A stretch of 37,142 nt of DNA from a virus, in the IMG/VR virus record IMGVR_UViG_3300045303_000121, positions 1-37,142 of that record; one strand, given 5' to 3'. Numbering within the stretch: position 1 is the stretch's first letter; the number at the start of each line of letters is the position of its first letter. The notes beneath the pieces were generated by a model. The model had not been told where the DNA came from. It ran no database searches and worked only from the letters and a program-made list of their open reading frames with translations. Positions 1 to 32,353 of the stretch are shown here, one piece after another. The translations under genes were made by a program, and so were the position numbers.

Positions 1-167
1 AAATAGTCCAAAAACTTCCCAAAACCCTGTTTGTTCTCGTTCAGGATTGAGCACAGATACGAGGGGGTGACCGATACTTCCCTGCATACTGAAGCGAGAG
101 AGCGATTCTCTACAGCTGTGCGGAGAAGATTGCGGACTTCGGGTTCGGTAAGGTATCTGGTGCTCAT
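1..167 (-). CDS. Small helix-turn-helix DNA-binding protein, 3' end cut by window edge
   Basis: This frame is open from an ATG at 167 to the window edge (55 complete codons, no stop reached). The start overlaps the tnpB stop as ATGA, so translation is probably coupled to tnpB. The protein has an N-terminal helix (LTEPEVRNLL), then a helix-turn-helix-like stretch (SLASVCREVSVTPSYLCSIL) and then NENKQGFGKFLDYF. This order matches small phage Cro-like proteins, where SPSYLSxxLNG is followed by GxKxLxxLG. It probably binds DNA and may regulate its own operon, which is inference. The remaining C-terminus lies outside the window. Confidence 0.75.
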   Translation of the reverse strand, partial: MSTRYLTEPEVRNLLRTAVENRSLASVCREVSVTPSYLCSILNENKQGFGKFLDY

Positions 168-1255: not shown

Positions 1256-1289
1256 CGCTTTACACAAGCTCCGTTGACTCTAGTGGGAT

Positions 1290-3202: not shown

Positions 3203-3448
3203 TCAATAAACAGAATACTTATCCATATCCCGATGGCCGTCGCCAAGGTATGGATTCTGCGCATCACAAATACGCAAGCGAGCCATTCCACCAGGGACCG
3301 AACATTTCACAGCCATGTCAGCCTTTACTCTGTCGTATTCGCGACCCGAGAAAGACGCATACATTCGGCGAGTGCGGATATCAATCTGGAAATCCCTACC
3401 AATGTTTTTCATCTTCATGGTGGCCGCTACTCCGGTATTTCTTGTCAT
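3203..3448 (-). CDS. Small protein of unknown function (81 aa)
   Basis: An 81-residue ORF starts at ATG 3448 behind a GGGAGCGGGAAC ribosome site. A second ATG at codon 11 could be the true start. The middle (DFQIDIRTRRMYASFSGREYDRVKADM) looks like a small beta-hairpin followed by a helix. A plus-strand ORF over the same DNA is longer but lacks a ribosome site and runs against every neighbour. The function is unknown. Confidence 0.55.
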   Translation of the reverse strand: MTRNTGVAATMKMKNIGRDFQIDIRTRRMYASFSGREYDRVKADMAVKCSVPGGMARLRICDAQNPYLGDGHRDMDKYSVY

Positions 3449-3484
3449 GTTCCCGCTCCCGTTTACCTACCCAATGGAGCTATC

Positions 3485-3637
3485 CTAATTGATCGCAAGC
3501 AGGAACGCAAGCACTATCGCAAGCATAATTTCAGGAGAGCCGTAGACCCCTTTCCCATCCGGTTCATACACGGTGGTACTAGGGTCCCCTCTGGAGGTCT
3601 TTCCAGCCCATCCCGTTAGGGGTAGGGTTCCATACAT
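3485..3637 (-). CDS. Small membrane-anchored protein (50 aa)
   Basis: This 50-residue ORF runs from ATG 3637 to TAG 3485. The first 36 residues are polar (TTVYEPDGKGVYGSPE). The last 14 form a hydrophobic helix, MLAIVLAFLLAIN, too short for a standard transmembrane segment but able to anchor in a membrane. No clear ribosome site precedes it. It is the first minus-strand gene after the non-coding gap. Confidence 0.45.
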   Translation of the reverse strand: MYGTLPLTGWAGKTSRGDPSTTVYEPDGKGVYGSPEIMLAIVLAFLLAIN

Positions 3638-3744
3638 GACCGGGGAACAATTGGGTCAGCTTTACCCGGAATAACTTTTTGTGAGCGACTGGTGAGTTTC
3701 TAACCGACATACTGCGTGGCTCTGACGAGCGAGTAGACAGTGTC

Positions 3745-3805
3745 GATTGACAGCAATGGGGAATTGCTAGAGAATCTATCCCGTCGTACGTTGCTGTCGA
3801 CAATC
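3745..3805. repeat. Imperfect inverted repeat around the small-RNA promoter
   Basis: GATTG-ACAGCAA (3745-3756) can pair with TTGCTGT-CGA-CAATC (3791-3805), giving 12 base pairs with a 3-base bulge. The arms lie on the -35 box and just after the expected start site. It may be an operator that lets a dimer close the promoter, or part of a folded RNA. Confidence 0.5.
3747..3775 (+). promoter_or_regulatory. Predicted sigma70 promoter for a small RNA
   Basis: A perfect -35 box TTGACA (3747-3752) is followed by a 17-base spacer and a -10-like GAGAAT (3770-3775, 4 of 6 matches). The start site would be near 3782. It faces right, against all surrounding genes, and a terminator follows within 80 bases. 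An imperfect inverted repeat (3745-3756 and 3791-3805) brackets it and could be an operator. Confidence 0.5.
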
Positions 3806-3860
3806 TAAATCAGTTTCCCGCTGTACGCAAGAGCCACCTTTGACCGGTGGCTTTTGTGTT
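3782..3860 (+). ncRNA. Predicted phage small RNA, about 80 nt
   Basis: The stretch between the plus-strand promoter at 3747-3775 and the intrinsic terminator at 3832-3857 has no plausible ORF and would give a transcript of about 75-80 bases. The whole gap 3638-3918 lacks a supported gene on either strand. The small RNA would be antisense to any minus-strand read-through of the accessory genes, or could act in trans on phage or host mRNA. No known RNA family is recognised. Its evidence is the promoter, terminator and strand isolation only. Confidence 0.45.
3832..3857 (+). terminator. Rho-independent terminator, plus strand
   Basis: AGCCACC (3832-3838) pairs with GGTGGCT (3846-3852) around a 7-base loop and is followed by TTTTGTGTTT. 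On the minus strand no T-run follows, so the signal acts on rightward transcripts. Confidence 0.65.
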
Positions 3861-3918
3861 TATGGTGCTCAACTATCCCTCCCCTCCCCCTGTGTCAATG
3901 GGGTAGAATGCTGTTGCT

Positions 3919-4122
3919 TTAAACTTTAATGCTGATGATACTTATGATGCTCGCAGTAGCAGTTCCCGAAAACTGGAGTAATCCTATCGTAGGGGCTGCT
4001 TTCTGCGAGCACTTATCCAGCCCACCGCCACTGCGGGAGGCGAAACGAAATCGGGTCGGGCTAAGCTGTCTATTGCAGCCTCTAAGCATCAACACGACCG
4101 CCGCATAATCGTAAGCGGACAT
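3919..4122 (-). CDS. Doubtful ORF (67 aa)
   Basis: A 67-residue ORF starts at ATG 4122, eight bases after the stop of the 102-aa gene. It fits the strand of its neighbours but has no convincing ribosome site, and its sequence (Ser/Arg-rich centre, SIISIISIKV tail) is unlike a folded domain. A plus-strand ORF of similar length also crosses this DNA. It is kept because otherwise 3638-4129 would be nearly empty on this strand. Confidence 0.3.
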   Translation of the reverse strand: MSAYDYAAVVLMLRGCNRQLSPTRFRFASRSGGGLDKCSQKAAPTIGLLQFSGTATASIISIISIKV

Positions 4123-4129
4123 TCCTGTT

Positions 4130-4438
4130 CTAATTCATTACTTCCCACTTCTTGAGTTTATCGGCAAGGAACTTTTCAAGTTTTCGACTTTCTTCTGCAA
4201 TACGCTTTGAATGAAAAACACCAACTACGCAATAAGCTGGCTCTTTGTCCATTAAGTCTTTTACCGACACAAGAAGATCGCCCAGATAAGTAACGTAAAT
4301 TCCAAGCTGCATGATGTCCAGCTTTCCTAAATCTTCCTCACTCATAAATAACGGCCTAGACATCACGGCCTTTCTAAATTCTTTACTCGGATTCCCCATT
4401 ACCGATTGAGCAATATCATCCCAGTATCTAAGTATCAT
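4130..4438 (-). CDS. Helical protein of unknown function (102 aa)
   Basis: This 102-residue protein is mostly alpha-helical, with LDIMQLGIYVTYLGDLLVSVKDLM in the middle and a charged helix RKLEKFLADKLKKW at the end. It reads like a small helical bundle. It lies between the 131-aa and 67-aa ORFs on the same strand. No family is recognised. Confidence 0.6.
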   Translation of the reverse strand: MILRYWDDIAQSVMGNPSKEFRKAVMSRPLFMSEEDLGKLDIMQLGIYVTYLGDLLVSVKDLMDKEPAYCVVGVFHSKRIAEESRKLEKFLADKLKKWEVMN

Positions 4439-4468
4439 TTCATTTACTCTAAATATTAAACCTAAAGG

Positions 4469-4864
4469 CTATAAGTGCGTTCGTGAATCATTCGCATAAA
4501 TACCGTGGTCCGGGAGAGAAAGCGTCAGCGTCTCGGTCTCTCCGCACCAACAGCAACGCCGTGTCACGATATGGCCACCCGTTGTATTGCTGTGCTCAGA
4601 ATGCAAGCAATGCCCAGTCTTTCGTGGGTTTCTTAAACAGTCTCCAATTATCTCGTTCATTTTGCTTTCCCCTTGTTTAGCATAAGCGCATCGGGCCCGA
4701 GCTATGTAACTACGCACAAGATCTTCCCATTCGTCGCCTGTCGTTTCTGCTAAACGCTTGAGGCGATACCAGGCAACGCCAGAACCTGGGCCGCCTTTCT
4801 CGGTCAGTTTATCCAACCAATCTACCATTGCGCACATGTCGGCGGTTTCTTGTTCGGTTAGCAT
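4469..4864 (-). CDS. Two-part protein with C-terminal Cys/His segment (131 aa)
   Basis: The ATG at 4864 overlaps the upstream TGA by one base (TGATG), which I prefer over a GTG one codon earlier. Residues 1-68 are helical (ADMCAMVDWLDKL, WEDLVRSYIARAR). The rest is Cys/His-rich (CLHSEH, RRCCWCGE), like a small zinc ribbon. An internal ATG at 4660 has its own strong ribosome site (AGGGG seven to eight bases upstream), so a separate 63-residue zinc-ribbon protein may also be made. Confidence 0.6.
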   Translation of the reverse strand: MLTEQETADMCAMVDWLDKLTEKGGPGSGVAWYRLKRLAETTGDEWEDLVRSYIARARCAYAKQGESKMNEIIGDCLRNPRKTGHCLHSEHSNTTGGHIVTRRCCWCGETETLTLSLPDHGIYANDSRTHL

Positions 4865-5091
4865 CACTTCCCACCCTTCGACTCGTTGATTATGTGCTGC
4901 GCTGGTTCTCCGAATATGCGACAGAGCGGATTATCCGGCTTCGCTAGTTCCTCTCGAATGATGGCGCGGATTAGAGATTCGATAGCGGTTGTCGTATCGA
5001 GATGACTCGCGCCATACTGTATTCCGCCTAGCTGTCGGCTAAGGTCGTCTTTCGCTTTCTCAACCTCGCTCCGATTGTCTTTGTCTACCAT
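4864..5091 (-). CDS. Small helical protein of unknown function (75 aa)
   Basis: This 75-residue protein is charged and helical, with EVEKAKDDLSRQLGG, then TTTAIESLIRAIIREELAKP, and a Lys/Gly-rich tail. It starts three bases after the stop of the 76-aa gene and its own stop overlaps the next start. The function is unknown. Confidence 0.6.
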   Translation of the reverse strand: MVDKDNRSEVEKAKDDLSRQLGGIQYGASHLDTTTAIESLIRAIIREELAKPDNPLCRIFGEPAQHIINESKGGK

Positions 5092-9246: not shown

Positions 9247-9392
9247 AATTCGATTACGGTAAATACAACCCCGCTCCCGCTAAGCGCAAGACAGGTAAGA
9301 GCGCGTTTCTACGCAAGCTCGAAAAAGCACAGCGCAAAGAGATCGAATCGCGGGCCACGGTCACGGAATTGAAACAGAGGAAGAAAGCATGA
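9243..9392 (+). CDS. Small basic protein (49 aa)
   Basis: The 49-residue ORF lies exactly between the DUF551 gene and the ERF gene, with ATGA overlaps at both ends. It is Lys/Arg-rich (APAKRKTGKSAF, LRKLEKAQRKE, TELKQRKKA). Placed before a recombinase, it may help bind DNA, but this is inference. Confidence 0.6.
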   Translation: MKFDYGKYNPAPAKRKTGKSAFLRKLEKAQRKEIESRATVTELKQRKKA

Positions 9393-10051
9393 GTGAGCAA
9401 AGTGAGTCGATTAACGAACTGGCGACGGCGCTAGCGAAAGCACAGGGTAAGATTACCGGCGCCTTGAAGGACTCGGCTAATCCGTTCTTTAAGTCAAAGT
9501 ACGCAGATCTTGCGGCCTGCTGGGATTCCTGCCGCCTGCCGCTCTCTGAGAACGGCCTTAGCGTTATCCAGGTGCCTGCGGCCGATGAACAAGGGGTAGT
9601 CCTTACGACGATCCTAGCCCACGCTAGCGGCCAATGGATCAAGAGCATGCTACGGATGGTTCCCAAGGATGGCAGCCCTCAATCCGTGGGGTCTGCGCTG
9701 ACTTACGCCCGTCGCTATGCCCTGGCAGCAATGGTGGGCTTGGCTCAGGTGGATGACGATGGCAATGCGGCCAGCGGCAAGGGAAACGACCCACGAGGCG
9801 AGATAAATGCCGAGCCTGCCGAGGTTAAGGCTTGGGTATCCAAAATCGCCGACATGAAATCAACAGACCTGGACGAGTTCGGCCATGCTGCGGCGGCATT
9901 TAAGATTCACGAAGAACTTAACCGCGATCAAGAGCTATACATTGCGGTGGCCGACGAGATTGCAAAGCAAGGGATATTCAGCAAGAAGAATTGGAAGGAC
10001 TTAATCAATCTACACAAGGCAAAGAACGGCGGGCCTGGCGCTAGAAATTAA
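9389..10051 (+). CDS. erf: ERF-family single-strand annealing protein
   Basis: This 220-residue protein carries the ERF signature: NPFFKSKYADLAACWDSC near residues 32-49, then GLSVIQVP, then TTILAHASGQWIKS. It continues with GSALTYARRYALAAMVGLAQ and a DDDGNA segment. ERF proteins anneal complementary single strands in phage recombination and genome circularisation. The C-terminal third is a variable helical region. The next genes (NinB-like and Ref-like) complete a recombination module. The start overlaps the small basic gene as ATGA. Confidence 0.9.
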   Translation: MSEQSESINELATALAKAQGKITGALKDSANPFFKSKYADLAACWDSCRLPLSENGLSVIQVPAADEQGVVLTTILAHASGQWIKSMLRMVPKDGSPQSVGSALTYARRYALAAMVGLAQVDDDGNAASGKGNDPRGEINAEPAEVKAWVSKIADMKSTDLDEFGHAAAAFKIHEELNRDQELYIAVADEIAKQGIFSKKNWKDLINLHKAKNGGPGARN

Positions 10052-10464
10052 TGGGAACAATCATCCTGCCCAGATGCGAAGAGACCCGCAACCTTGCCCG
10101 CGTAGTTGCGTTTCTCTCTGCGCTGCCTAAGCAAAAGGCATGGCGCATCCGCATCGACGAACTGAAAGGAGATCGGACGGATCATCAGAACAATGCACTC
10201 TTTGGTGTAGCCTATCCGCCGCTGTGCTCGCACTTGGAATGCACAGACGAGGAGCTGCATGAGATCGTATGCGAAGAATTCTTCGGCAAGAAAACCGTGT
10301 TAGGAAATACATTCCCGATTCGCACAACAACAAAGGGGCCAGATGGAAAGCGTGACGTTATTAGCTGGGATGTATTCAACGACTTTTACGCGAAGGTTCA
10401 ACAAATGGGCGCAGATTGTGGCGTGTGGATTCCTGACCCTGATAGACACAAGAGAACTAGATGA
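10051..10464 (+). CDS. NinB-like recombination protein
   Basis: The start overlaps the erf stop as TAATG. The 137-residue protein contains AWRIRIDELKGDRTDHQNNALFGVAY, which resembles the W.V.I....RS..QN..YW segment of NinB, a single-strand-binding recombination mediator. The rest includes EELHEIVCEEFFGKK and WDVFNDFYAKVQQMGADCGVWIPDPD, also a NinB-like ending. Position next to erf supports a recombination role. The match is by pattern only and an unrelated small DNA-binding protein is possible. Confidence 0.55.
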   Translation: MGTIILPRCEETRNLARVVAFLSALPKQKAWRIRIDELKGDRTDHQNNALFGVAYPPLCSHLECTDEELHEIVCEEFFGKKTVLGNTFPIRTTTKGPDGKRDVISWDVFNDFYAKVQQMGADCGVWIPDPDRHKRTR

Positions 10465-10601
10465 GCGGCATGCAATACAGAATAAAGAAAGGCTTCTGCC
10501 CATTTATGTGCGGTGGAGTACTTCGCACGTCATTTGTGAATGGCGGGGTTCGTGGCAAGACCTGCTATAAATGCGGTGTGTTGGTGTTGGTGGCGGCATG
10601 A
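10461..10601 (+). CDS. Small Cys-rich protein (46 aa)
   Basis: A 46-residue ORF coupled by ATGA overlaps to both neighbours. It has Cys13 and Cys17 (CPFMC) and Cys38 and Cys41 (CYKC), spaced to bind one zinc ion. It is likely a small zinc ribbon in the recombination module. Confidence 0.55.
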   Translation: MSGMQYRIKKGFCPFMCGGVLRTSFVNGGVRGKTCYKCGVLVLVAA

Positions 10602-10957
10602 AGCGCGGGAAGTCAACGGGGAAACCGACGAAGGCAGAAGCCTCGCGGATGGCAGAAATAAAAGCGATGACATGCATAGCTTGCGAGATAGGTAACGCGG
10701 TCTATCGCTTCAGTCAGGTAGAGGTTCACCATATTGTTGACAAGGGATACCGAAAGCACTCAGGCGGACATATGGCAACCCTACCACTTTGCAGTTTTCA
10801 CCACAGAGGCGAGCCGCCGTACAACTGGACGGTAAGTGAAGCGACAGAAATGTTCGGCCCGTCATTCGCGTTACAGAAGCGTAAGTTCGTCGCTAAGTAC
10901 GGCACCGAGCGTGAGCTTCTCGCCATCATCGACAAACGACTACAGAGAACATCATGA
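10598..10957 (+). CDS. Ref-like HNH nuclease (RecA-dependent family)
   Basis: From ATG 10598 the protein has 119 residues. It has a Cys26/Cys29 knuckle, the motif VEVHHIVDKGYRKHSGGH, then TLPLCSFHHRGEPP and a C-terminal ALQKRKFVAKYGTERELLAIID. This order of HH, LC..HHRG and F...YG.E.ELL matches the Ref (recombination enhancement function) nucleases first known from phage P1, which cut displacement loops made by RecA. Location after ERF and NinB-like genes fits. A longer upstream frame is rejected because of the ATGA overlap. Confidence 0.8.
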   Translation: MKRGKSTGKPTKAEASRMAEIKAMTCIACEIGNAVYRFSQVEVHHIVDKGYRKHSGGHMATLPLCSFHHRGEPPYNWTVSEATEMFGPSFALQKRKFVAKYGTERELLAIIDKRLQRTS

Positions 10958-11334
10958 GCGACCCCCGGCATTCAAAAATGACGAAAGAACTACCTATTGC
11001 GCATGGCAGCGCTGATTTCGAATGCGGCCAGTATGACCAAAAAGCTGTCTATGCCATCCTAGAATCCGAGCGCATTCTACGTCAGGAGATTGCGGCTGAG
11101 CTATCCGATGTCGCCAACCTTTACCGAGACGAGATTGCCAGGCGCATACGGGCGGAAGCGCGGGCAAATGAAGCGGAGAAAGACGCGGCGCGGTATCGGT
11201 TTTTGCGGCCGATAATCCAGGGGCAAGTTGGCAATTATCCTGACGGCTTCCAAGGTATTTGGGCAGAGCTTATGCCTGGCGAACTGGATTCGTTTATAGA
11301 CGCAGCCCTATCACAGGAGACCGTAAAGCCATGA
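10954..11334 (+). CDS. Coiled-coil-like early protein (126 aa)
   Basis: The 126-residue protein has a long charged helix, about residues 30-76 (ESERILRQEIAAELSDVANLYRDEIARRI, AEARANEAEKDAARYRFLR). The tail is shorter and mixed. This N-terminal coiled coil followed by YRFLRP resembles phage proteins of unknown role. ATGA overlaps join it to both neighbours. Confidence 0.6.
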   Translation: MSDPRHSKMTKELPIAHGSADFECGQYDQKAVYAILESERILRQEIAAELSDVANLYRDEIARRIRAEARANEAEKDAARYRFLRPIIQGQVGNYPDGFQGIWAELMPGELDSFIDAALSQETVKP

Positions 11335-11528
11335 CGAAAGATTTTCTAGCCATGCAAAAACTGATCGAACAGGCTGCGCCAATAATTGAGTCTATGCGGG
11401 ATGGCGTGGTCGCTGCTTTCACAGTAAACGGCGAAATTCCTGAATCGCATATTAAGGCAGAGATCAATGCATACAACCGCTGGCTAAAGATAGCCCGTTC
11501 ACTATCAAAGAAGGCCATAAAGCCATGA
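11331..11528 (+). CDS. Helical early protein (65 aa)
   Basis: From the ATG at 11331 (ATGA overlap), the 65-residue protein is helical: AMQKLIEQAAPIIESMRDGVV and IKAEINAYNRWLKIARSLSKK. A longer frame beginning at 11259 is rejected because it lies inside the previous gene. Function is unknown. Confidence 0.6.
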   Translation: MTKDFLAMQKLIEQAAPIIESMRDGVVAAFTVNGEIPESHIKAEINAYNRWLKIARSLSKKAIKP

Positions 11529-12016
11529 CCCTGACCAAAGCGCAATTCAACACCATCAAACAAAGTCCGCGACAGGCAACAGTTACCGATGTCGAGGATC
11601 TGTGCGATGAGATTGAGAGATTGAGAGCGATCGCACTTGAGGTGCGCCACGGCAATCGCAAAGTCACGATCTATCTTGACTCAATACTGCGCTCATGGGG
11701 AACGAACATAGACACAGAAATGAGCGACGAGCCGCGTTCATTTGCGGCCGATCAAGCTGCGTTTGATTGGCTTTTTGAGCCAGCCGCGACACCGGATGAG
11801 CCCAGTGACGTTACAGACGAATGCGTTCATGGTGTGCGCTTTGAAGATGAATGTATTGTCTGCAAACAGGCACATCGGCTTGGTACAACGAAGGAATCGG
11901 GTCTAGTGAAACATGACGATACCGATATTCACTGCGCACGGCATTGGCCGCTTAAATGTCCAGGCTGTCCAGAATGTGAGGGTATTACTGCAACGAAGGG
12001 AGATGTGCGGCCATGA
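11525..12016 (+). CDS. Early protein with C-terminal Cys/His motifs (163 aa)
   Basis: The N-terminal half is helical (VEDLCDEIERLRAIALEVRHGN, YLDSILRSW). The second half has C.HGVRFEDECIVC and HCARHWPLKCPGCPEC, so it may carry one or two zinc-binding sites. It overlaps both neighbours by four bases. No family is recognised. Confidence 0.6.
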   Translation: MTLTKAQFNTIKQSPRQATVTDVEDLCDEIERLRAIALEVRHGNRKVTIYLDSILRSWGTNIDTEMSDEPRSFAADQAAFDWLFEPAATPDEPSDVTDECVHGVRFEDECIVCKQAHRLGTTKESGLVKHDDTDIHCARHWPLKCPGCPECEGITATKGDVRP

Positions 12017-12983: not shown

Positions 12984-13119
12984 ATTGAATCCGAACGTTT
13001 TTCTAGCTGGATGCACGCGTAACCCAGAGAGCCTCAGAGAGATTGCTAGATACGCAATCTACGGAATTGTTATGGCTGCTATTCTCGCTGGCTGCACTGA
13101 GGTATTACTTTTTATTTAG
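12967..13119 (+). CDS. Small membrane protein at the end of the early operon (50 aa)
   Basis: The ATG at 12967 gives 50 residues ending in a hydrophobic helix (YGIVMAAILAGCTEVLLFI). It is the last plus-strand gene, and its final 15 bases overlap the end of the convergent late gene. A longer frame starting at 12883 is rejected because it lies inside the previous gene. Confidence 0.5.
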   Translation: MKYRTELNPNVFLAGCTRNPESLREIARYAIYGIVMAAILAGCTEVLLFI

Positions 13120-14277
13120 CGTTAGGGTGCCTACGCGGGTGTTTGTGAGCGTATCTACGACAGCGTAAGACGTGGTAGCTGGCGGGACTGGTTGGGGCGC
13201 CTGGGCGGACCAGAGACGGCGTAGTAGGGTCATTTTGTCGGCTCTTACGGTCAGCGGGTTGCCTTCCATGATTGCACCAGAGTCGGGAGAATTTACATAG
13301 GCCCAAAAAAACGATGAGGTGATGCCCTTAGCTATGAGGTAATCGACCCACGCATCGGCCCACACCTTGTCTTGACCTGTATAGGTCGATCCCCACTCAC
13401 TTGGGCAGACCGCGAACTTTGGGGAGAGGAATCCAAACAACGTTTCCCAGTCAGCGGCAAGGTTCTTTGGAAAGGTTGGCGCGGAGAAAGACGCCTTATT
13501 CCATACGTGGGGCCCATATGTGTGCGCGCAAAAAACTAACTTATCCGCTCTAATGCTGAGCGGTGAGTAAGCCTGCGGCTGTAAATTCTCGCCCCAATTT
13601 TCCTCTACTGCTTTCTCGACGCCATCCCAGTTAGCGGTTATACCTTGGACAAATATTAACAGGTTGGGGTTGGCGCCTAAAATAGCGTTTGCGGCAGACT
13701 CAGCTAGCGGCTTCCATTGAGCATCGCCACCTGTGGTCCAGCGCACTCGATCATGCGGCTCGTTGAAAATATCAATAGCTATGAAGCGCGGTAAGTGTGC
13801 ATAGCGTTTTGCAACGAAGCATAAATCACGAACCCAATCTTCCGTAGTATACGGCTGGCCGTTCCACGTCTCGACCCACTTGCCTTTGCCGTATTCGTTG
13901 GGATCTGTTACGAACGGATGAAAGTATTGGTTAACGGCGCTGACGCTGTGAAAATCTAGCAGGATGTAAAGCCCTAAGCGATCTGCCTCAGCCATCCACA
14001 TATCTAGCATTTGCAGTGGCGACTTGCCGATTAGGTCGTCATTCAGCGGAATCATGAAGCTGTCTACGCCCTTCGCGGCGTAGAGCGTGTCAGGAACGAA
14101 TGGACAGCGAATGGCGTTAAAGCCCAGTGATTTTATGTGCGCTAGCTGTTCCTTCCAGCCCTGCACCCAAAGCATCATTGGCTTCAGTATTTTGTCATTG
14201 AATCCATAGTGATTTACCCCTCTAAGCTGTATAGGGGTGCCGTTTTCGAGTATCGAGCCGCCCTTCGTCGTGAACAT
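13105..14277 (-). CDS. GH5-family cellulase-like glycoside hydrolase
   Basis: This 390-residue protein has the GH5 pattern: LRGVNHYGF (residues 18-26), GFNAIRCPF (52-60), LYILLDFHS (103-111), then FIAIDIFNEPHD with acid/base Glu173. AHTYGPH (251-257) follows, then CPSEWGSTYT with nucleophile Glu294 and a late FFWAYVN. GH5 enzymes cut beta-1,4 glucans such as cellulose and related polymers. No signal peptide is seen, so it would be released at lysis or carried on the virion. It is the last gene of the late operon, one base after a small membrane-protein gene, and ends in a Thr-rich tail. A polysaccharide depolymerase role is inference. Confidence 0.85.
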   Translation of the reverse strand: MFTTKGGSILENGTPIQLRGVNHYGFNDKILKPMMLWVQGWKEQLAHIKSLGFNAIRCPFVPDTLYAAKGVDSFMIPLNDDLIGKSPLQMLDMWMAEADRLGLYILLDFHSVSAVNQYFHPFVTDPNEYGKGKWVETWNGQPYTTEDWVRDLCFVAKRYAHLPRFIAIDIFNEPHDRVRWTTGGDAQWKPLAESAANAILGANPNLLIFVQGITANWDGVEKAVEENWGENLQPQAYSPLSIRADKLVFCAHTYGPHVWNKASFSAPTFPKNLAADWETLFGFLSPKFAVCPSEWGSTYTGQDKVWADAWVDYLIAKGITSSFFWAYVNSPDSGAIMEGNPLTVRADKMTLLRRLWSAQAPQPVPPATTSYAVVDTLTNTRVGTLTLNKK

Positions 14278-14278
14278 C

Positions 14279-14425
14279 TTACTTCAGCGGCAATACCTGA
14301 AGGGCCACGATGATACAGAGCAAGATAACACTTACCCAGAGTGGACACTTGCCGATTGCCGACATGATCGCAGCGACAAACGCTCCGACTACCAAAAGCC
14401 ACATGACTGTAATTATACCGCTCAT
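14279..14425 (-). CDS. Small two-helix membrane protein, holin-like (48 aa)
   Basis: The ORF starts at ATG 14425 behind a perfect AGGAGG site. Two hydrophobic segments (about residues 3-22 and 29-45) flank AIGKCPLW. Size and position next to a lipoprotein fit a pinholin or a regulator of lysis, but the same look is seen in small membrane proteins of unknown role. It ends one base before the GH5 start. Confidence 0.6.
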   Translation of the reverse strand: MSGIITVMWLLVVGAFVAAIMSAIGKCPLWVSVILLCIIVALQVLPLK

Positions 14426-14481: not shown

Positions 14482-14913
14482 CTAAACGGCAGGGATTGCA
14501 GCGAGTATCTGTGCCAAGAACTGCCGCACCTTAACGAGCCCAGGTGTATCGAGTGCTTTCGGTCCTAGCTTAGCTTCGACCGCCACCGCAATCAGGTTCA
14601 GCAAGTCATGCGCGTCTGCCTTTTCAATCGGCGTCAAATTAAGCTTGTCGATTTCCTGGGATGCAACTTCGGCCAAGCCGGACAGGGTTGATTCAGAATT
14701 AACGACTGACTGTACTCGCGCCACGATTATGCGAATATGCGCGACTTTCTCGCTGGCCCGCGGATCGCCAGTGACGAAGTGGCGTACTGCGATATTGATC
14801 GAGGTAGTCAGAATCACCTCACCTTCAGGCGATAGCGTTTGCGTGCCGTTAGGATTGGTGACGCAGGCACTAAGGAGCGTGATGGCTAGCAGGATCGACA
14901 GTAGCTTTCTCAT
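14482..14913 (-). CDS. Lipoprotein, possible outer-membrane spanin subunit
   Basis: The N-terminus MRKLLSILLAITLLSAC is a lipoprotein signal with lipobox LSAC (Cys17). The mature 127-residue part has helical segments (ILTTSINIAVRHFVTGD, KVAHIRIIVARVQSVV, AHDLLNLIAVAVEAKL). It overlaps by four bases the gene for a membrane-anchored coiled-coil protein. That pair looks like a separated spanin system: inner-membrane anchor plus outer-membrane lipoprotein. The lipoprotein is longer than a typical Rz1, so the role is uncertain. Confidence 0.65.
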   Translation of the reverse strand: MRKLLSILLAITLLSACVTNPNGTQTLSPEGEVILTTSINIAVRHFVTGDPRASEKVAHIRIIVARVQSVVNSESTLSGLAEVASQEIDKLNLTPIEKADAHDLLNLIAVAVEAKLGPKALDTPGLVKVRQFLAQILAAIPAV

Positions 14914-15203
14914 CGATGATCTCCGGTGGTTTTAGTTTCTGCGCGACCTTCTTTCAGCCCGCGCTCATGACCTTCGGCTTCCCCTCGTTGCAGGTTGGCC
15001 GCAGCAAGACGCTCGCTCATTCCATTAGTGGCGACATGCAGTGCTTCAAGCTTTACGTCTTGCTTCTCAGTTGCAATGCGTTGCTGAAACAGCATTTCGT
15101 CCTGCTTGTCTTTTCGCCTATTCGACTTGTAACTATTGTAGAACTGGAGCGCGATGCTACCGAGAATGGTAATGAGCGTTCCCCATTGGGCTAGATCATT
15201 CAT
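14910..15203 (-). CDS. Membrane-anchored coiled-coil protein, possible inner-membrane spanin
   Basis: Residues 7-23 (WGTLITILGSIALQFYNSY) are a single N-terminal membrane helix. The rest is a charged coiled coil (RRKDKQDEMLFQQRIATEKQDVKLEALH, AAANLQRGEAEGHERGLKEGRAE). This matches inner-membrane spanins and holin-associated proteins. The gene overlaps the 48-aa gene upstream (15200) and the lipoprotein gene downstream (14913), both by four bases. Confidence 0.6.
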   Translation of the reverse strand: MNDLAQWGTLITILGSIALQFYNSYKSNRRKDKQDEMLFQQRIATEKQDVKLEALHVATNGMSERLAAANLQRGEAEGHERGLKEGRAETKTTGDHR

Positions 15204-15896: not shown

Positions 15897-16616
15897 TTAG
15901 CCCGGACACTTCGCCCAGACTACGGCAGGTTTCTGATTGCCGGAAAAGGTAACGACACGTTTGTCGATTCGGTAGTAGGTTACACCCTTTGTGCTAAAGG
16001 TCTGTGTCGCATCGCACTCAGTATCCGCTGGCGCTGATCCTGCAACGATGGCAACCACGTCCCCAGGTCCACCCGCTGCATTAAGAACCTGCCTATAGAC
16101 CACACTGTCTAAGACGGTTGTCTTGACAACATGGAATGCCCAAGAAGTAGTTGCAATACCGTTTACTATCCCGCAGCTTTGATACACAGTCGTGACGCTA
16201 TTGCGAGGTGGGGCCGGTGTACAAATGGCAATTACATCTGCTGCTGGAATAGGGGGGTTGGAGGTTGCAACCGGGGGCGAGTTTGGATCAGGTAAGTTGC
16301 GGCGCCGGGTTAGCGTCATGATGCAAAGCTTAAGGTCGGTCGCATTGTTAGAGCATGTTGCGACCAACGCATCAGGGGGTAGAAAGCCATACATAGATGA
16401 GGGCAACGGCTTGGCTACAAAATCATATGGGCCACTTCCCTGCGACTCAGGCCCAACCATCACAAGATCTGATGAGGCAACCGTCGCTTTAGGGATGCAT
16501 GGCGAGCATACGACAATGGTATCTGCATGGGATGGCAGCGTGAATGCTAAGAACACGACAAACGCGATCAGCATCGCAATGAATAGCCAGGGCTGGTGTT
16601 CGATGTCTTTTTTCAT
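15897..16616 (-). CDS. Exported Cys-rich protein (239 aa)
   Basis: The ATG at 16616 is chosen because it overlaps the endolysin stop as ATGA; an earlier start would run 32 codons into that gene. The N-terminus KKDIEHQPWLFIAMLIAFVVFLAFTLPSHA is a signal peptide with a likely cut after SHA. The mature part is beta-rich with many Cys (CSPCIP, ATCSN, KLCIM, ICTPAP, SCGIV, TECDAT, KCPG), suited to disulphides in the periplasm or on a surface. Function is unknown. Confidence 0.6.
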   Translation of the reverse strand: MKKDIEHQPWLFIAMLIAFVVFLAFTLPSHADTIVVCSPCIPKATVASSDLVMVGPESQGSGPYDFVAKPLPSSMYGFLPPDALVATCSNNATDLKLCIMTLTRRRNLPDPNSPPVATSNPPIPAADVIAICTPAPPRNSVTTVYQSCGIVNGIATTSWAFHVVKTTVLDSVVYRQVLNAAGGPGDVVAIVAGSAPADTECDATQTFSTKGVTYYRIDKRVVTFSGNQKPAVVWAKCPG

Positions 16617-16984
16617 GCGCGCCTTCCGTCTGGAGTAATACTGTAATGATTGTAATCTTTCTTCTGGAAGTCTCCACCCCAGCGATGGTCTTCTCCTAAA
16701 GCCTTCCACCATGCTCCAAGTTCAGTATGTCCGGTTCCATCCGTAATAAAAACGCCGTCCTTGAATAAATTCAAGTCAATTGCCAGTCGCTCAATATGCA
16801 AGCTCGTTACTGTACCGATACCTTGCGCCGCATTCCACTTTGCCTGCTCAGGCGTTCGCCATGCCTCGCCAAGTGTTACGGCATAACCTCTAGCATCGGC
16901 TTCTTGAATAAGCAATGCGACTCCAAGGGCAAATCGCGATTGCTTTTGTCTTTGTGTTTCAACCATCAGTGCAGCAGATTCCAT
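16613..16984 (-). CDS. M15-family peptidoglycan peptidase (endolysin)
   Basis: This 123-residue protein has AWRTPEQAKWNAAQGIGTVTSLHIERLAIDLNLF and GGDFQKKDYNHYSI. The S-L-H, A-I-D and N-H motifs give zinc ligands His63, Asp70 and His113 as in M15 (VanY-like) peptidases, which cut peptide bridges in cell-wall peptidoglycan. No signal peptide is present, so a holin would be needed. ATGs at codons 1 and 7 are both possible starts. Neighbouring membrane proteins are candidate holins. Confidence 0.85.
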   Translation of the reverse strand: MESAALMVETQRQKQSRFALGVALLIQEADARGYAVTLGEAWRTPEQAKWNAAQGIGTVTSLHIERLAIDLNLFKDGVFITDGTGHTELGAWWKALGEDHRWGGDFQKKDYNHYSITPDGRRA

Positions 16985-17163: not shown

Positions 17164-17442
17164 TTACTCCTGTTTCTGTAGTTTCTTGGCAATTGCTTCA
17201 TCCGGTTTTTTAAGACCGGCACCTATAAACTTGGCGTCAAGTTCGAGCAAATAGTACTGGTACATCCTGGTTTCGCGCTCAAGCGTTCGATAGGAAAGGA
17301 TCAGAAATACATTCACGATGACGCTGACTCCTAGGGCGATTCCTATCCATACATCTTTGGGCATGCCAAAGAAATTGGCAGTCATCTGCGGGCTATTGTC
17401 TCCAATTCTACTTAGACTTGCTATGGGTTTAACTTCTGGCAC
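17164..17442 (-). CDS. Single-pass membrane protein, holin candidate (92 aa)
   Basis: A hydrophobic segment near residues 31-49 (DVWIGIALGVSVIVNVFLILSY) is followed by a charged, helical tail (RTLERETRMYQYYLLELDAKF). One membrane helix plus a cytoplasmic coiled tail fits a small holin or a spanin-like protein. It overlaps the upstream membrane protein by 22 bases and lies two genes before the endolysin. Confidence 0.55.
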   Translation of the reverse strand: MPEVKPIASLSRIGDNSPQMTANFFGMPKDVWIGIALGVSVIVNVFLILSYRTLERETRMYQYYLLELDAKFIGAGLKKPDEAIAKKLQKQE

Positions 17443-17780
17443 TTCGTTAGCTCCACTTTCAGAAATGCAACATCAGCAACTAATGCCGCTTGATTAGCGA
17501 CCATGCCAGACTGAGTCTCCGATACGGTCAATAACTTCACACCCAAAAAACACACCAGTGCAGTGATCATCCCAAGCGAGGAGACTAGCACTGCGACTTT
17601 ACTCTTAGTGCCGTTACTGCCAGCGGCATGCTTTTCGTTGTATGCCCCTAGCGCATTGATGAGCGCAACAAGATCGGCAGCATCTCCGTGATCGCCTTCA
17701 CGGGCTTTGGAAGCAATGTACTCAAGCATCGTTGCTTGAGCTTTACCCATCGCGGAGGGAACGCTTTCGCCGTTAGCCAT
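17421..17780 (-). CDS. Membrane protein in the lysis region (119 aa)
   Basis: The N-terminal half is helical (AQATMLEYIASKAREGDHGDAADLVALINALGAYNEKH). Residues 63-84 (KVAVLVSSLGMITALVCFLGVKLL) form one membrane helix, then a helical tail ends in KVELTKCQKLNP. It is the first gene after the tail fibres and could be a holin-type protein. Confidence 0.55.
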   Translation of the reverse strand: MANGESVPSAMGKAQATMLEYIASKAREGDHGDAADLVALINALGAYNEKHAAGSNGTKSKVAVLVSSLGMITALVCFLGVKLLTVSETQSGMVANQAALVADVAFLKVELTKCQKLNP

Positions 17781-17797: not shown

Positions 17798-19408
17798 CTA
17801 GTTGTTTGCAAAGGTGAATGCGTCCATCTGCTTTGCGACGGCATAACGATTTGTAATCGTAATGACCCCGGCTGCTTGAGTAACCCAAAACTTAGACGAG
17901 CCGGCCCCAGGATCAGCGCCAACTACCGCAAATCCGCCGCCATCAAGTAGCCTGACCCCAGTCACAGAATCATTGATTAAAACCGCCGTGACACCATCGC
18001 TTGCATTTCTAAGCGTAAACATACCGGATGCGATAGCGGTCTTTAATACCAAAGTTCCACCGACCGCAACTGTGTTGATCGTATTGTTACTTTCGATAAA
18101 GCAATTACGAGTTGCGCTAAATGTGTTTGACACCTGAAACTTGGTGTAAGCGACCAGCGTGTCGGTTGCCACCTGTTCGCCGCAAATATCTTGGCCCTTG
18201 AGGATGACGCGGTTGGCTCGGTTGCTAATCGTATTACCGCCAGCAACGTTGTCATTGCCGATGATGGTGTTTTTAGTGGGTTCCGTGCCAATAACAACAC
18301 ACTGGTCCGCCGCACCGCCGGTTTCATCCGTAAACCCTATGATGGTATTCATAGTACTCGGATTTGTGTATACGGTCTTATTGCTTAAGCGAATACCGAC
18401 TAGGCCATTCGCAGATCCGCTATGGAAGAATATATTCGATAGACTGCTCTCACCTGCCCCGCGAAATTCAATGCAAGTTGTTCGGCAATTCCAAAATTGC
18501 AAATCAGAGCCGCTATGGGCATTCGCAACTTCAGCAAACAACAACCCAATATCCGCACTATGAACATGGACATTGTGAATGTTGCCAAAGTAATTGACGG
18601 CGGTCGGGCCAATGGTTGCTTGTCCTGATGGCACGAAGATACCAATATTTCCAGCTGCTGCCACACCCTCGATGTTGACGTTCCTAAGCTGCCACCATGT
18701 GGCGACTGAATTAGTCGTATTGTCCAAATGTCCGCATGCAACAACCCCACCCGCATGGTTCTTTTCAGTGGCAATCTGCCCGCCATCAAATGCCGATCGA
18801 GTCCCCTGCAAATAAACGACCGGCGTAACTGCTGAGGCTGCCGTTACACGAACGATCATCGCCTTTTGAGATAGCCTTAGCATCTTGCCAGGCGGTACGG
18901 TAATCATCGTATCGGTACGCCAATCTCCTGCTGGGAGCCAGACATCATTGGAGAGAGAAAGGGCGGTTGTGATCGCAGCCGTAACATCAAGAGATCTGGC
19001 AGCGCTTAAAACGTCGGTTATTTGCGCCGCCGACATATAGCGAAACGGCTCACCATAGTTGGTTGTGTCGTAGGCGTAGTTCGTCGGCGTCACGCCTGCG
19101 GCGATTTCGGCGGCGGTCTGTACCTTATCCGGCCCCACAGTGAGCGCGGTCGGATTCGTCAATGAGGTGAGCGTTACTGCATCTTGCAATCCAGTGGGAT
19201 TTGCAAGGTTCGTGATCTTATGCGCGTTCCAATCAATGTTTGCGCTTGGCTTTCCTTGTCCGTCACGAGTGATGCAGTTGCTTAATCCAGCAGCGAATCC
19301 GTTATGCTCCGTATCGAAACGTGAGGCAGTAATAGGAATACTATTCGCGGCGTCTTGGACCCACGAATATGATCTTATAAACTGGCCCGATCCATCAAAT
19401 CCAGACAT
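17798..19408 (-). CDS. Tail fibre/tailspike protein with beta-helix-like body
   Basis: This 536-residue protein shares with the next fibre an N-terminal block (RSYSWVQDAANSIPITASRFDTE, GFAAGLSNCI), which attaches fibres to the podovirus tail. Residues about 110-530 are Asn/Gly-rich repeats (NIGIFVPSGQATIG, NTIIGNDNVAGGNTISN) typical of right-handed beta-helix spikes. These bind and may cut surface polysaccharides. No catalytic residues can be named with certainty. It starts 15 bases after a clear GGAG site. Confidence 0.75.
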   Translation of the reverse strand: MSGFDGSGQFIRSYSWVQDAANSIPITASRFDTEHNGFAAGLSNCITRDGQGKPSANIDWNAHKITNLANPTGLQDAVTLTSLTNPTALTVGPDKVQTAAEIAAGVTPTNYAYDTTNYGEPFRYMSAAQITDVLSAARSLDVTAAITTALSLSNDVWLPAGDWRTDTMITVPPGKMLRLSQKAMIVRVTAASAVTPVVYLQGTRSAFDGGQIATEKNHAGGVVACGHLDNTTNSVATWWQLRNVNIEGVAAAGNIGIFVPSGQATIGPTAVNYFGNIHNVHVHSADIGLLFAEVANAHSGSDLQFWNCRTTCIEFRGAGESSLSNIFFHSGSANGLVGIRLSNKTVYTNPSTMNTIIGFTDETGGAADQCVVIGTEPTKNTIIGNDNVAGGNTISNRANRVILKGQDICGEQVATDTLVAYTKFQVSNTFSATRNCFIESNNTINTVAVGGTLVLKTAIASGMFTLRNASDGVTAVLINDSVTGVRLLDGGGFAVVGADPGAGSSKFWVTQAAGVITITNRYAVAKQMDAFTFANN

Positions 19409-19500: not shown

Positions 19501-20136
19501 TTAACTCAGGTTATAGGAAAGTTGCCAACCAAGCGGAAGGCCCTTACTTCCAGAGGGCGTAAATAACGTGATTCCAGACCATGTATCGTTTTGGAAAACA
19601 ATCGTGCTGGCTCCCGCCGAAATAATCGCCGATACCTGAGCAACATCACTGCTGTCCACGATTGGACATGCAGCCCAGACAGCATGGACTGGGCGAAGGG
19701 CAGCCGGTAAATTAGTAAGCGTCAATCCTGCGGCATTGGATGTCCCAAGAATAGAGGCATTCGCCCATAAGAACGCCTGATTGGAAATGATTCGGTAGTT
19801 TACCGTTCCCGTGGTGGCCGATGCCATGTCCGTCAGGTTGGCGGTAAAACTTCCGGTGGTCGCTGCGATAGGCGCGTATCGAGCGTCGCCCGTCTGTAGG
19901 TTTAGCGCATCGGCAACGGAAACCGGATCAGCTAGGCCCGTAATCTTTTTGTTGTTGAACGGTATATCAGCGCTTATCGTGCTTTGACCATCGCGACAGA
20001 TGCAGTTTGACAGGCCAGTTGCGAAGCCATTGTCTTCAGTATCGAAGCGCGCTGCTAGAATAGGAATCGCATTAGCCGCATCCTGAGTCCAGTTGTAGGT
20101 GCGGATAAAATTTCCGACTCCATTAAATCCCGGCAT
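19501..20136 (-). CDS. Short tail fibre protein, related to the longer one
   Basis: The 211-residue protein opens MPGFNGVGNFIRTYNWTQDAANAIPI, then FDTEDNGFATGLSNCI, the same head-attachment block as the 536-aa fibre. The body shows ITGLADPVSVADALNLQTGDARYAP, which is common in phage fibres, followed by a beta-rich tip. The tip differs fully from the longer fibre. It follows the homing endonuclease insertion, and its ribosome site (AGGAG) comes from sequence at the insertion edge. Confidence 0.8.
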   Translation of the reverse strand: MPGFNGVGNFIRTYNWTQDAANAIPILAARFDTEDNGFATGLSNCICRDGQSTISADIPFNNKKITGLADPVSVADALNLQTGDARYAPIAATTGSFTANLTDMASATTGTVNYRIISNQAFLWANASILGTSNAAGLTLTNLPAALRPVHAVWAACPIVDSSDVAQVSAIISAGASTIVFQNDTWSGITLFTPSGSKGLPLGWQLSYNLS

Positions 20137-20176
20137 GATATACTCCTATAACTGGATTAAGTATATGCGGGGAAAT

Positions 20177-20812
20177 ATGCCAATTCGTAAAACCGTTACC
20201 GGTCTTGTTTTTGGGCGACTGACGATCCTTGATGAAGGCGGTGATTGCCCTCGCTACGTTAACTGCATGTGTAGTTGTGGATCGAAAAAACTTATCAGAC
20301 TGAACCATATTACTCACGGAAAAATAAGTTCTTGTGGCTGCATAAGAGCCGAGCTTTCGGCGGAACGCGCCGCCCACATGCGAGAAAGCCTTGATTTTCA
20401 CGGACTGTCTGGATCGAAGGCTTATGGGGTTTGGTGTGCAATGAAGCAGCGGTGCCTCAATAAAAATAACCGAGCTTTCAAAGATTATGGTGGGCGTGGC
20501 ATTACTATTTGCAAAGAATGGCTTAATTCTTTTGAATCCTTTTTTTCTGACATGGGAGAGCCGACCAATAATCTCACGCTTGATAGGATCGACAATAGTA
20601 AAGGCTATTCTAAAAATAATTGCGAGTGGCGCACACGAAAGCAACAGCAGCGCAATAGGCGCACTAACCGCTTGCTTAAATATAAAGGAGAAACAAAGAC
20701 GGTTGTTGAGTGGGCTGAAGCTATTGGTATGAAGCAAAAAACCTTCGCAAATAGAATTTGCAGCGGATGGACTATAGAACAAGCTATAGAAGTCCCTCTT
20801 CTTAAAAGGTAG
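20177..20812 (+). CDS. HNH/AP2-type homing endonuclease, inserted on the opposite strand
   Basis: From ATG 20177 the protein has 211 residues. A Cys-rich N-terminus (NCMCSCGSKKLIR, SSCGCI) is a zinc ribbon. The core YGVWCAMKQRCLNKNNRAF, then YGGRGITICKEWLNSFESF, then LTLDRIDNSKGYSKNNCEWRT, then RNRRTNR is the usual phage homing-endonuclease block. The end (TKTVVEWAEAIGMKQKTFANRI) is an HTH-like DNA-binding tail. Such genes insert site-specifically and move between phages. It runs against every neighbour and lies at a tail-fibre start. A longer frame from 20099 is rejected because it overlaps the fibre. Confidence 0.88.
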   Translation: MPIRKTVTGLVFGRLTILDEGGDCPRYVNCMCSCGSKKLIRLNHITHGKISSCGCIRAELSAERAAHMRESLDFHGLSGSKAYGVWCAMKQRCLNKNNRAFKDYGGRGITICKEWLNSFESFFSDMGEPTNNLTLDRIDNSKGYSKNNCEWRTRKQQQRNRRTNRLLKYKGETKTVVEWAEAIGMKQKTFANRICSGWTIEQAIEVPLLKR

Positions 20813-25315: not shown

Positions 25316-25716
25316 TTGCGTGGCTGACCCCCCATGAGTGCCTTGGCAATAATAGGCGCCCAATTGATGCCACCACTCTGCGCACCATTAGCTAACCCAT
25401 TGGTGGGGGTTCCAGGTGCAGGCATTGCAGCGGGGTTATAAACAGGCCCAGGAGGTTTGTTCATGTTGAATATAGATCCCGGCGCATTCGGGTCGGCCGG
25501 CGGCACGTAATTAGGGTCTTGATTCACCCCGGAGAACACATTGCGCCCACCTGTAAATGGACTTGCAATGGAGTTGCCCATTTGCTTTGAGCCTTTGAGC
25601 ACGTCTTCATAGAGACCTGTGACCCCGGTCATATGCCCCAACTTACTGATAGAGGGTTCTCCCAGTAACCCTGATTGATGGGTTAATTTATCCCAACCGT
25701 TTTTAACGAAGCCCAT
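25312..25716 (-). CDS. Small virion-region protein (134 aa)
   Basis: This 134-residue protein is Gly/Pro/Asn-rich (NYVPPADPNAPGSIFNMNKPPGPVYNPAAMPAPGTP) with a short helical start. It looks like a flexible structural protein. It overlaps its upstream neighbour by one base (TAATG) and the acetyltransferase by four. No function is known. Confidence 0.55.
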   Translation of the reverse strand: MGFVKNGWDKLTHQSGLLGEPSISKLGHMTGVTGLYEDVLKGSKQMGNSIASPFTGGRNVFSGVNQDPNYVPPADPNAPGSIFNMNKPPGPVYNPAAMPAPGTPTNGLANGAQSGGINWAPIIAKALMGGQPRK

Positions 25717-27491
25717 TAGACCGGCCCTCCCGGTTCATACATGTAGTTGGTGCAAAACCAAAAGAGCGTCAGCCCTTTAAGTTGCATGGAAAGCCGACCT
25801 GATACCCAGTTACCTTCTCCCGAGACGCCTTCCCAATCCTTGGAGAGATAATTCGCCCCACCCCAGCTTGTGACATCCCAGAGAGAGACATCCCATAGCG
25901 GCTGACTGCTAACACTGAGTAACGGAGATTGGTTTATCACATCTTCAAAATCTACGTTAAGCGTGATAATGGGCGTCACGATTTGCGCGGTGGCCTGAAA
26001 GATCGGCTGGGCCATCGCAAAGACTTTTTGCTGTCCGGGGCTGCCAAAACTCGTGAAGGCAGGCTTGCAGTCAATTGTGATCGGAATAGAGGAATCTGAA
26101 GTCCCCGTATCGGCTAGATAAACAATCCCACCATTGCCACCGAAGTAAAGAAAATCTCCCTGTACCTCAAAACAATTCGCATTCCACGACTTAAACCGCC
26201 ACCAAGAGTTTGCAACGGTATTCATGACCCATTGATGTGCGGTGGAGTTTTCAACCTCGGGGACATTCAGAAATAGTTTTGTACCGATCGGATAGACGAT
26301 GACTTGCCAGCCAAAGAATTCAACAAAGTCGCCAATATCCGAATTCACAGCCGTGCTGATTTTATCGGTTAAGTTCACGCCATTTTGGCTGCGATCCGTG
26401 GACATAAGCTTTGACATAGGAGCCAGACCGTCGGTCGTAATCATGACCACATCAGATCCATATTTAGCCCAACATCTACGCCCAATCGGACGGCCGGTAC
26501 GAAACACACCCACCAAGACCCAAGTAGCTGCGGATGATGGGTCATAGCCTTGGTAAATAGCAACTTCCCCCTCACTGGTCATGAAAGCGGCCCAGTCATT
26601 CATTCCCGCGGCGTTATCGACAGTCCAGGTCGCCATCTGCATGAGGGTGCCGCCGAACTTAAAAAGCTGCCCTAATGGTAATTTGGTAAGCGTGCCCTGA
26701 AACGCAGAGGGCCCGGAATACCAAGCATTCATGGTATTTTTTTCGATGTACCAGCAACGCTGTTGGTGGATCGTGATCGTAATGAGGTTAGTTGCAGTGA
26801 GTCCAGAACCTGCAATCGTGGTCGTAGACCATCCACCGACGGTTTCGACCGTGTAGGAGAATCCCGCCCCAGCCCCACCAAGGCTTGCGTTATTGACTCC
26901 CAAAACATTTCCGACAACGTAATTCGCCCCTACTGCGGTAATAACGACGCTTGTGACCGCACCACCGGCCACAACGAATGTTCCTTGTGCGCCCGTACCT
27001 GCACCGCCTGTTAAGGGAACATTGGTATAGGTGCCATTTACGTAAGCAGCGCCACCGACTAGCGTTACGAGCGAGGTGATAGACCCTTGTGTTCCACCAT
27101 CGTATCTCCGCGGTGCATCTGATCCATTCACAGCAATCAGGATATTGCCACCCCCCGCATTGAACATCTGATGTTGCCAGCGATTATTTGACGTTCCTGT
27201 GACAGTCGTTGCAACACCCGCGCCTTGGACAGTGATGTCGTAAAACTTGTTATTGGCAGCGGCAAAGAGTTTTCGCACCACAAAACCGTTATAGGCCATG
27301 ACGGTCTCAACGGCTGTGGTCATGCCGGTGCCCCAAGAGGCATTTCCGTTTCGGCTTTGAACGTAAGAGGTCGTACCAAACATGTTATCGCCGACAATGC
27401 AGTCCGTATCAGGCATAGCGGCCAGCGCATCGCGGGCATTTACCCCACCGGTCGGTGCGCCGATGGTTTTTATTTCCTGATTAAGGGACAT
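25716..27491 (-). CDS. Tail hub protein, propeller-like (591 aa)
   Basis: The 591-residue protein starts APTGGVNARDALAAMPDTDCIVGDNMFGTTSYVQSRNG, a layout shared with podovirus tail tube or plug proteins that begin near GG.N..D....MP...A....N.....G....R.G. Regular beta strands follow (ITIHQQRCWYIEKN, EGEVAIYQGYDPSSAATWVLVGVF). By order it lies just after the head-tail adaptor. A role as tail nozzle or DNA plug, like P22 gp10 or T7 gp12, is inferred by layout. It overlaps the adaptor by 11 bases. Confidence 0.65.
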   Translation of the reverse strand: MSLNQEIKTIGAPTGGVNARDALAAMPDTDCIVGDNMFGTTSYVQSRNGNASWGTGMTTAVETVMAYNGFVVRKLFAAANNKFYDITVQGAGVATTVTGTSNNRWQHQMFNAGGGNILIAVNGSDAPRRYDGGTQGSITSLVTLVGGAAYVNGTYTNVPLTGGAGTGAQGTFVVAGGAVTSVVITAVGANYVVGNVLGVNNASLGGAGAGFSYTVETVGGWSTTTIAGSGLTATNLITITIHQQRCWYIEKNTMNAWYSGPSAFQGTLTKLPLGQLFKFGGTLMQMATWTVDNAAGMNDWAAFMTSEGEVAIYQGYDPSSAATWVLVGVFRTGRPIGRRCWAKYGSDVVMITTDGLAPMSKLMSTDRSQNGVNLTDKISTAVNSDIGDFVEFFGWQVIVYPIGTKLFLNVPEVENSTAHQWVMNTVANSWWRFKSWNANCFEVQGDFLYFGGNGGIVYLADTGTSDSSIPITIDCKPAFTSFGSPGQQKVFAMAQPIFQATAQIVTPIITLNVDFEDVINQSPLLSVSSQPLWDVSLWDVTSWGGANYLSKDWEGVSGEGNWVSGRLSMQLKGLTLFWFCTNYMYEPGGPV

Positions 27492-32026: not shown

Positions 32027-32353
32027 TTACTTAAACATCTTGCGAATACGTTCCGGCGAGTGCTGCCAAACATCGACCACAGCACGTTCTAGCTTCTTAT
32101 CCTCTTCGCGCGCCCTTGCCTCACGAAAGCTTGCGGCAATTTGTTCCTCGACCTTGCGTCCTTCATAGGGACGGGAGCCGGTGCGCTTTAAGTCTTCACG
32201 GCGTGCGCGCTTTCCCTCGATCCATTTACCCGTCACAGGGGATTCATAGCCGGGAAGATCGCCAAAGACAGCGGGGGCAAAAGGCTCTTTATGTTGAAGG
32301 CCAACTTCAACTAGGGCGTGAGCTTCTGGTGACCAAACGTATCGGCGTCTCAT
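32027..32353 (-). CDS. Conserved structural-region protein (108 aa)
   Basis: The protein starts MRRRYVWSPEAHALVEVGL, then PAVFGDLPGYESPVTGKWIEGKRARREDLKRTG, then a long charged helix. The PGY.SPVTG.WI.GR..RREDLKR segment recurs in podovirus proteins next to scaffold genes. Its exact role is not known. It overlaps the PASTA gene by four bases. Confidence 0.65.
   Translation of the reverse strand: MRRRYVWSPEAHALVEVGLQHKEPFAPAVFGDLPGYESPVTGKWIEGKRARREDLKRTGSRPYEGRKVEEQIAASFREARAREEDKKLERAVVDVWQHSPERIRKMFK

Follow-up and report, generated by a model that had tools for sequence, protein, structure and literature searches.

The late operon and its last gene

The window, the whole stretch of DNA analysed, comprises the 37,142 bases of a virus record and belongs to a soil-type phage. 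Its late genes run leftward from a portal gene at the right end through the capsid gene (29849-30850), tail genes, two fibre-type genes, small membrane ORFs, an M15-type endolysin and small ORFs. The last gene of this operon codes for a GH5 glycanase, at the position that the first-pass annotation had assigned to it. The gene is located on the minus strand (14277..13105), starts with ATG and encodes 390 amino acids, with the catalytic domain beginning almost at the first residue. The plus strand across the same interval contains many stops. In shuffles of the gene (n = 500), the longest stop-free stretch was 280 codons and the mean 99 codons.

The two fibre-type genes (17798-19408 and 19501-20136, minus strand) match PHROG 13989 'virion structural protein' and are conserved in relatives of the virus. 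Both proteins have a common N-terminal adaptor of about 60 amino acids, which the GH5 protein lacks. An HNH endonuclease gene (20099-20812, plus strand; PHROG 374, 4.7e-65) lies on the opposite strand within the late operon. It overlaps the start of the second fibre gene (19501-20136) and has the appearance of a homing-type insertion.

Two small minus-strand ORFs (17164-17442 and 17421-17780) encode one transmembrane segment each according to hydropathy and are candidate holins; neither had a family match worth naming. The endolysin (16613..16984, minus strand) was identified by Pfam Peptidase_M15_4 (5.5e-07) and a PHROG endolysin family (3.2e-09). The GH5 gene is located 2.3 kb beyond it, with other genes in between. 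A 97-aa ORF (14910..15203, minus strand) combines a hydrophobic N-terminus with a charged, coiled-coil-like region. It may be a holin or a spanin, with a weak holin match (E 0.021), and has homologues in the virus relatives L099 and L102. The small lipoprotein-like ORF at 14482..14913 (minus strand; MRKLLSILLAITLLSAC...) is possibly an outer-membrane spanin, with a very weak Rz-like match (E 0.33). Directly before the GH5 gene, a 48-aa ORF (14425..14279, minus strand) with two predicted transmembrane segments and no family match has a perfect Shine-Dalgarno sequence (AGGAGG) in front of it. A single nucleotide separates its stop from the ATG of GH5, and that start codon lacks a good Shine-Dalgarno; GH5 translation is therefore probably coupled to this two-helix ORF. 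A scan for promoters and terminators gave hits no more numerous than in shuffles.

Family and fold of the glycanase

Residues 11-327 match Pfam PF00150 Cellulase with 2.1e-34, well over the curated cut-off, and the protein matches PHROG 18474 'hydrolase' with 3.3e-33. An NCBIfam search gave no match. The AlphaFold model, based on 27 homologues, has a mean pLDDT of 86.8 and a pTM of 0.87. Among solved structures, the endoglucanase of Xanthomonas campestris (4tuf) is the top match in both sequence and fold, with a sequence E-value of 3.7e-65 and a TM-score of 0.93 by target length. Sequence and predicted fold thus agree on family GH5, and the ORF proposed by the first-pass annotation is real. 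Foldseek E-values of the model were about 5e-31 for E1, 4tuf, EGPh and CelE2 versus 5e-17 for other GH5 structures. The protein is most likely a retaining glycanase that belongs in one branch with the endoglucanases 4tuf and E1. We take this branch to be subfamily GH5_1, a placement to be read with the window clade's long stem and weak joining support in a tree of 40 sequences that holds less than the full set of GH5 subfamilies.

Hydropathy revealed no hydrophobic N-terminal segment, signal peptide or transmembrane segment in the protein, in agreement with the first-pass annotation. The C-terminal tail (about residues 358-390; 13108..13206, minus strand) consists of a short Pro-containing linker and a predicted beta-hairpin, with strands at 368-375 and 380-388 in the AlphaFold model. 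In the alignment, it has no counterpart in the close homologues L125 and L232.

Active site and substrate groove

The catalytic glutamates named by the first-pass annotation, Glu173 and Glu294, align with Glu201 and Glu342 of the endocellulase of Pyrococcus horikoshii (2zum/3axx). The PDB holds the E201A and E342A mutants of that enzyme as cellotetraose complexes. Six further residues of the active-site type are conserved: Arg57, His110, Asn172, His252, Tyr254 and Trp325. The first-pass annotation had likewise noted the core GH5 motifs. All eight core catalytic residues are retained among the clade members, that is, the closest viral homologues at 54-58% identity.

The substrate groove differs. 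Across 24 other homologues, the phage tailspike relatives among them, the tryptophans at positions 23, 227, 263 and 341 show little or no variation; in the window clade they are lost. The window protein has W23H, W227N, W263S and W341P. Across the clade, Trp23 is replaced by His, Trp227 by Asn, Trp263 by Ser or Glu, Trp341 by Pro, Ala or Asn, Gly230 by Glu, His34 by Met or Gln and Glu211 by Gln. In the window copy alone, Gly293 next to the nucleophile is replaced by Ser, and the PNSGDTGG motif is also altered. The equivalents of Trp23 and Trp227 in E1 (Trp42 and Trp213) presumably line sugar-binding sites. The conserved aromatic groove residues expected of cellulase (beta-1,4-glucan) specificity are thus absent in the window protein and the whole clade.

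Since the groove tryptophans are replaced, plain cellulose is uncertain as a substrate. The sequence comparison suggests that the substrate is perhaps a glycan related to, and not identical with, plain cellulose, or that the enzyme is less active. Of the earlier label 'cellulase-like', the family assignment stands and the substrate claim is weakened. The first-pass annotation had listed mutations in the active-site groove as evidence against its proposal; these occur in part, in residues bearing on substrate choice, and the catalytic residues are unaffected.

The changes at Trp23, Trp227, Trp263, Trp341, Gly230 and Glu211, together with the window-only Ser293 and the altered PNSGDTGG motif, can also be read as decay: the fold and the catalytic pair would be kept and the groove degraded, leaving a protein mainly for glycan binding or an enzyme of very poor activity. 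This is distinctly unlikely. The eight core catalytic residues are kept across diverged clade members, which argues for selection on activity.

Relatives in viruses and cells

GH5 is rare in phages, as the first-pass annotation had stated. Homologues were present in 34 of 50,697 annotated phage records, the best at 24-32% identity. The six phage homologues examined in full have 619-926 amino acids, with a long N-terminal region preceding the GH5 domain, and are encoded among structural genes. In many further viral homologues, the GH5 domain is also located far from the N-terminus. A scan of viral contigs with the window GH5 as single protein found nothing; relatives surfaced only with alignments.

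The closest relatives are encoded by four viral contigs of IMG/VR (L232, L125, L126 and L128) and are 54-58% identical. Full-length close copies have the clade-specific groove residues in common with the window. L232 encodes a stand-alone GH5 of 403 amino acids, 54% identical to that of the window. Its gene order is a two-helix ORF and another membrane ORF, GH5, one 94-aa ORF and an M15 endolysin, the latter 39% identical to the endolysin of the window. Of those late genes of the window that were searched against L232, only GH5 and the endolysin matched. The GH5 gene is thus close to an M15 endolysin gene and to small membrane ORFs in the window and flanked by such genes in L232, with weak holin and spanin matches. 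In L128, the GH5 gene follows a fibre gene and is cut by the contig end. In L125 and L126, GH5 has an N-terminal extension and is located among head and tail-terminator genes. The extension contains a DNTADANKP motif that is also present in the preceding gene, which has a weak virion-structural match. L232 and L128 carry short N-terminal tags with Pro-rich linkers; the tag of the window protein is at the C-terminus.

A maximum-likelihood tree of 40 sequences placed the window, L125, L126 and L232 in one clade (100/100) on a long stem. The tailspike clade is separate (98/80), and the join of the window clade to the rest is poorly supported. The search for cellular homologues comprised a genome scan, with matches listed, and 385 alphaproteobacteria searched whole. 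The best cellular homologues among the matches listed reached 36-38% identity, and a recent transfer of the gene from the host was rejected on this ground. On sequence comparison, the window and the four contigs appear to form a GH5 group seen so far in viruses only.

Another stand-alone viral GH5 is encoded by L127 (1375-2661, plus strand). Its 428 amino acids include a long linker rich in Pro and a small tail at the C-terminus. Since it joins the tailspike clade (98/95), stand-alone enzymes may have originated repeatedly.

Comparison with known glycanases

GH5 genes are already known from phages, including phage cellulases, and from soil viral contigs. The gp095 of Erwinia phage vB_EamP-S6 degrades carboxymethylcellulose, and cellulose is the first receptor of this phage (PMC9544554). 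Cellulase activity was reported for S6 virions, and S6 requires cellulose (PMC9544554, PMC13220884). The proteins of this type (S6 gp095, PEp14 cel, SopranoGao endoglucanase and those of Fifi067, Hena1 and Skulduggery) resemble the window protein in a GH5 domain of the same branch, in the catalytic residues and in being encoded in the late or structural region of a phage. Identity is about 30%, and the clades differ. The S6-type proteins, at 619-926 amino acids, include the long N-terminal region and have retained the tryptophans of the groove, whereas the window protein has 390 amino acids and lacks such a region. Its domain starts at residues 3-11 of 390 and it falls outside the tailspike clade; the features of an S6-type tailspike are absent. 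The first-pass annotation mentioned neither the S6 precedent nor the 48-aa membrane ORF next to the GH5 gene.

The window enzyme could nevertheless be a virion-borne depolymerase. Attached to the particle, perhaps by the C-terminal hairpin, it would digest a polysaccharide coat at adsorption, as is thought for the S6 cellulase. The S6 precedent, the position of all six fully examined phage homologues as long fusions among structural genes and the structural setting of the clade members L125 and L126 point in this direction, and the hairpin could serve as an anchor. However, the window protein has neither an N-terminal virion domain nor the adaptor of the phage's own fibres. It ends the late operon past lysis-type genes, and the L232 copy is located within a lysis-type cluster. 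We regard attachment to the virion as the leading alternative, possible and somewhat unlikely.

The catalytic domain of the major endoglucanase of X. campestris (4tuf), Acidothermus E1 (1ece) and the Pyrococcus enzyme (2zum/3axx) share fold and catalytic residues with the window protein. These cellular enzymes are about 30-36% identical to it and contain the conserved groove tryptophans that the phage clade has exchanged for other residues.

Activity has been demonstrated for a GH5 endomannanase, an enzyme acting on mannans, that is encoded by a soil viral contig (Emerson et al. 2018, PMC6786970). Like the window gene, it is a GH5 gene on an environmental viral contig; its mannan activity sets it apart. 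This enzyme and the customary reading of glycoside hydrolases in soil viruses would favour an auxiliary metabolic gene, whose product would break down polymers from plants or soil and so nourish the infected host. Such a role is highly improbable for the window gene. The gene closes the late operon in a lysis-type region, its product lacks the signal peptide that a living host would need to make use of it, and there is no close cellular source (at most 38% identity among the matches listed).

What appears new is the virus-only clade, its altered groove and its recurrence close to lysis-type genes in the window and L232, two viruses that otherwise differ.

Proposed role at lysis

The common picture of phage polysaccharide depolymerases is that of tailspikes opening the way in. 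For the window enzyme, the most likely role, with about an even chance, is a different one, a late enzyme released at lysis that loosens a beta-glucan-type coat. GH5 would be synthesised late in infection and belong to the exit programme of the phage, its translation probably depending on the preceding two-helix membrane ORF. Because the protein has no export signal, it would be expected to accumulate in the cytoplasm. Holin and endolysin would open the cell and set the enzyme free. It could then cut a beta-glucan-type polymer that surrounds the dying cell and adjacent cells, which would free trapped progeny and thin the matrix.

Any of the three roles suggested by the first-pass annotation (clearing of biofilms, freeing of virions, part of the particle) may apply. 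Release at lysis is favoured because the gene is near lysis genes, as the last late gene past the M15 endolysin and small membrane ORFs, with a parallel in L232. The usual tailspike form is disfavoured because the protein lacks the tail-fibre adaptor of the phage itself; it also lacks a signal peptide and the long N-terminal region of known phage GH5 proteins. Several observations argue against release at lysis. The extension of L125 and L126 and their structural-gene setting make virion attachment possible within the group, and the short terminal tags of the window and L232 proteins could be anchors. The holin and spanin matches are weak, and 2.3 kb with other genes separate GH5 from the endolysin. 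The groove changes make a beta-glucan substrate uncertain.

A narrower form of release at lysis is unlikely: the virus-only GH5 lineage would be an envelope-polysaccharide lysin that is encoded and translated together with the genes for lysis, leaves the cell at lysis and not before, and has its groove re-shaped for a host exopolysaccharide that differs from plain cellulose. Some phages would then have a dedicated step for breaking the sugar coat at exit, besides those for membrane, wall and outer membrane. A glycanase kept with lysis genes would place depolymerase chemistry on the way out. With its catalytic residues kept and its groove aromatics changed, the virus-only clade offers a concrete starting point in the search for a new glycan specificity and for asking whether matrix polysaccharides limit phage release.

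Relatives of the virus

The capsid gene is common to 80 IMG/VR loci, mostly at 70-85% identity. Capsid relatives with up to 58% identity were present in 9 of 385 alphaproteobacterial genomes, the one bacterial class searched, and the capsid protein of a Bradyrhizobium phage is 44% identical to that of the window. A GH5 domain was detected in 2 of the 82 records with the capsid gene (80 loci and two phages, many of them fragments). L117 encodes an fn3-GH5 protein of 529 amino acids (3281-4870, plus strand), and L118 a protein of 799 amino acids that combines a weak DUF1349 match with GH5 (9554-11953, minus strand). Both differ from the window in architecture and site, so GH5 is an accessory gene at differing sites in this virus group. 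Both adjoin the portal gene, which marks a second place where this group carries glycanases as cargo. In the window, the interval between portal and capsid (32350-35490, minus strand) encodes a PASTA-domain protein (32350-32922, 3.4e-11), along with three larger ORFs that have no family assignment; in L118, this region contains its GH5 fusion.

In three other relatives, the late genes end with related proteins of 204-219 amino acids that have a linker rich in Pro or Ser and a possible beta-rich domain (L099 14609-15223, L107 13677-14336 and L111 14567-15226). A reading as carbohydrate-binding modules was rejected: Pfam, PHROGs and a PDB profile search gave nothing convincing, and a single-sequence model had a pLDDT of 29.5.

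Near the left end, the window encodes a TnpB/OrfB-type IS605 transposon protein (164-1267, minus strand) with a Cas12f1-like TNB domain (4.1e-19) and OrfB_IS605 (1.2e-14). Recombination genes on the early side (9389-10957, plus strand) code for an ERF-family protein (9389-10051, 7.2e-23) and a RecA-dependent nuclease (10571-10957, 2.1e-19). A block of about 87 amino acids, residues 133-219 of the window protein 25716-27491, is located in relatives in the homologue of the neighbouring protein 27481-28194 (L103 2127-2402, L104 11339-11614, L106 2446-2721, L108 13278-13553 and L118 2560-2820). The domain has changed places between neighbouring structural proteins.
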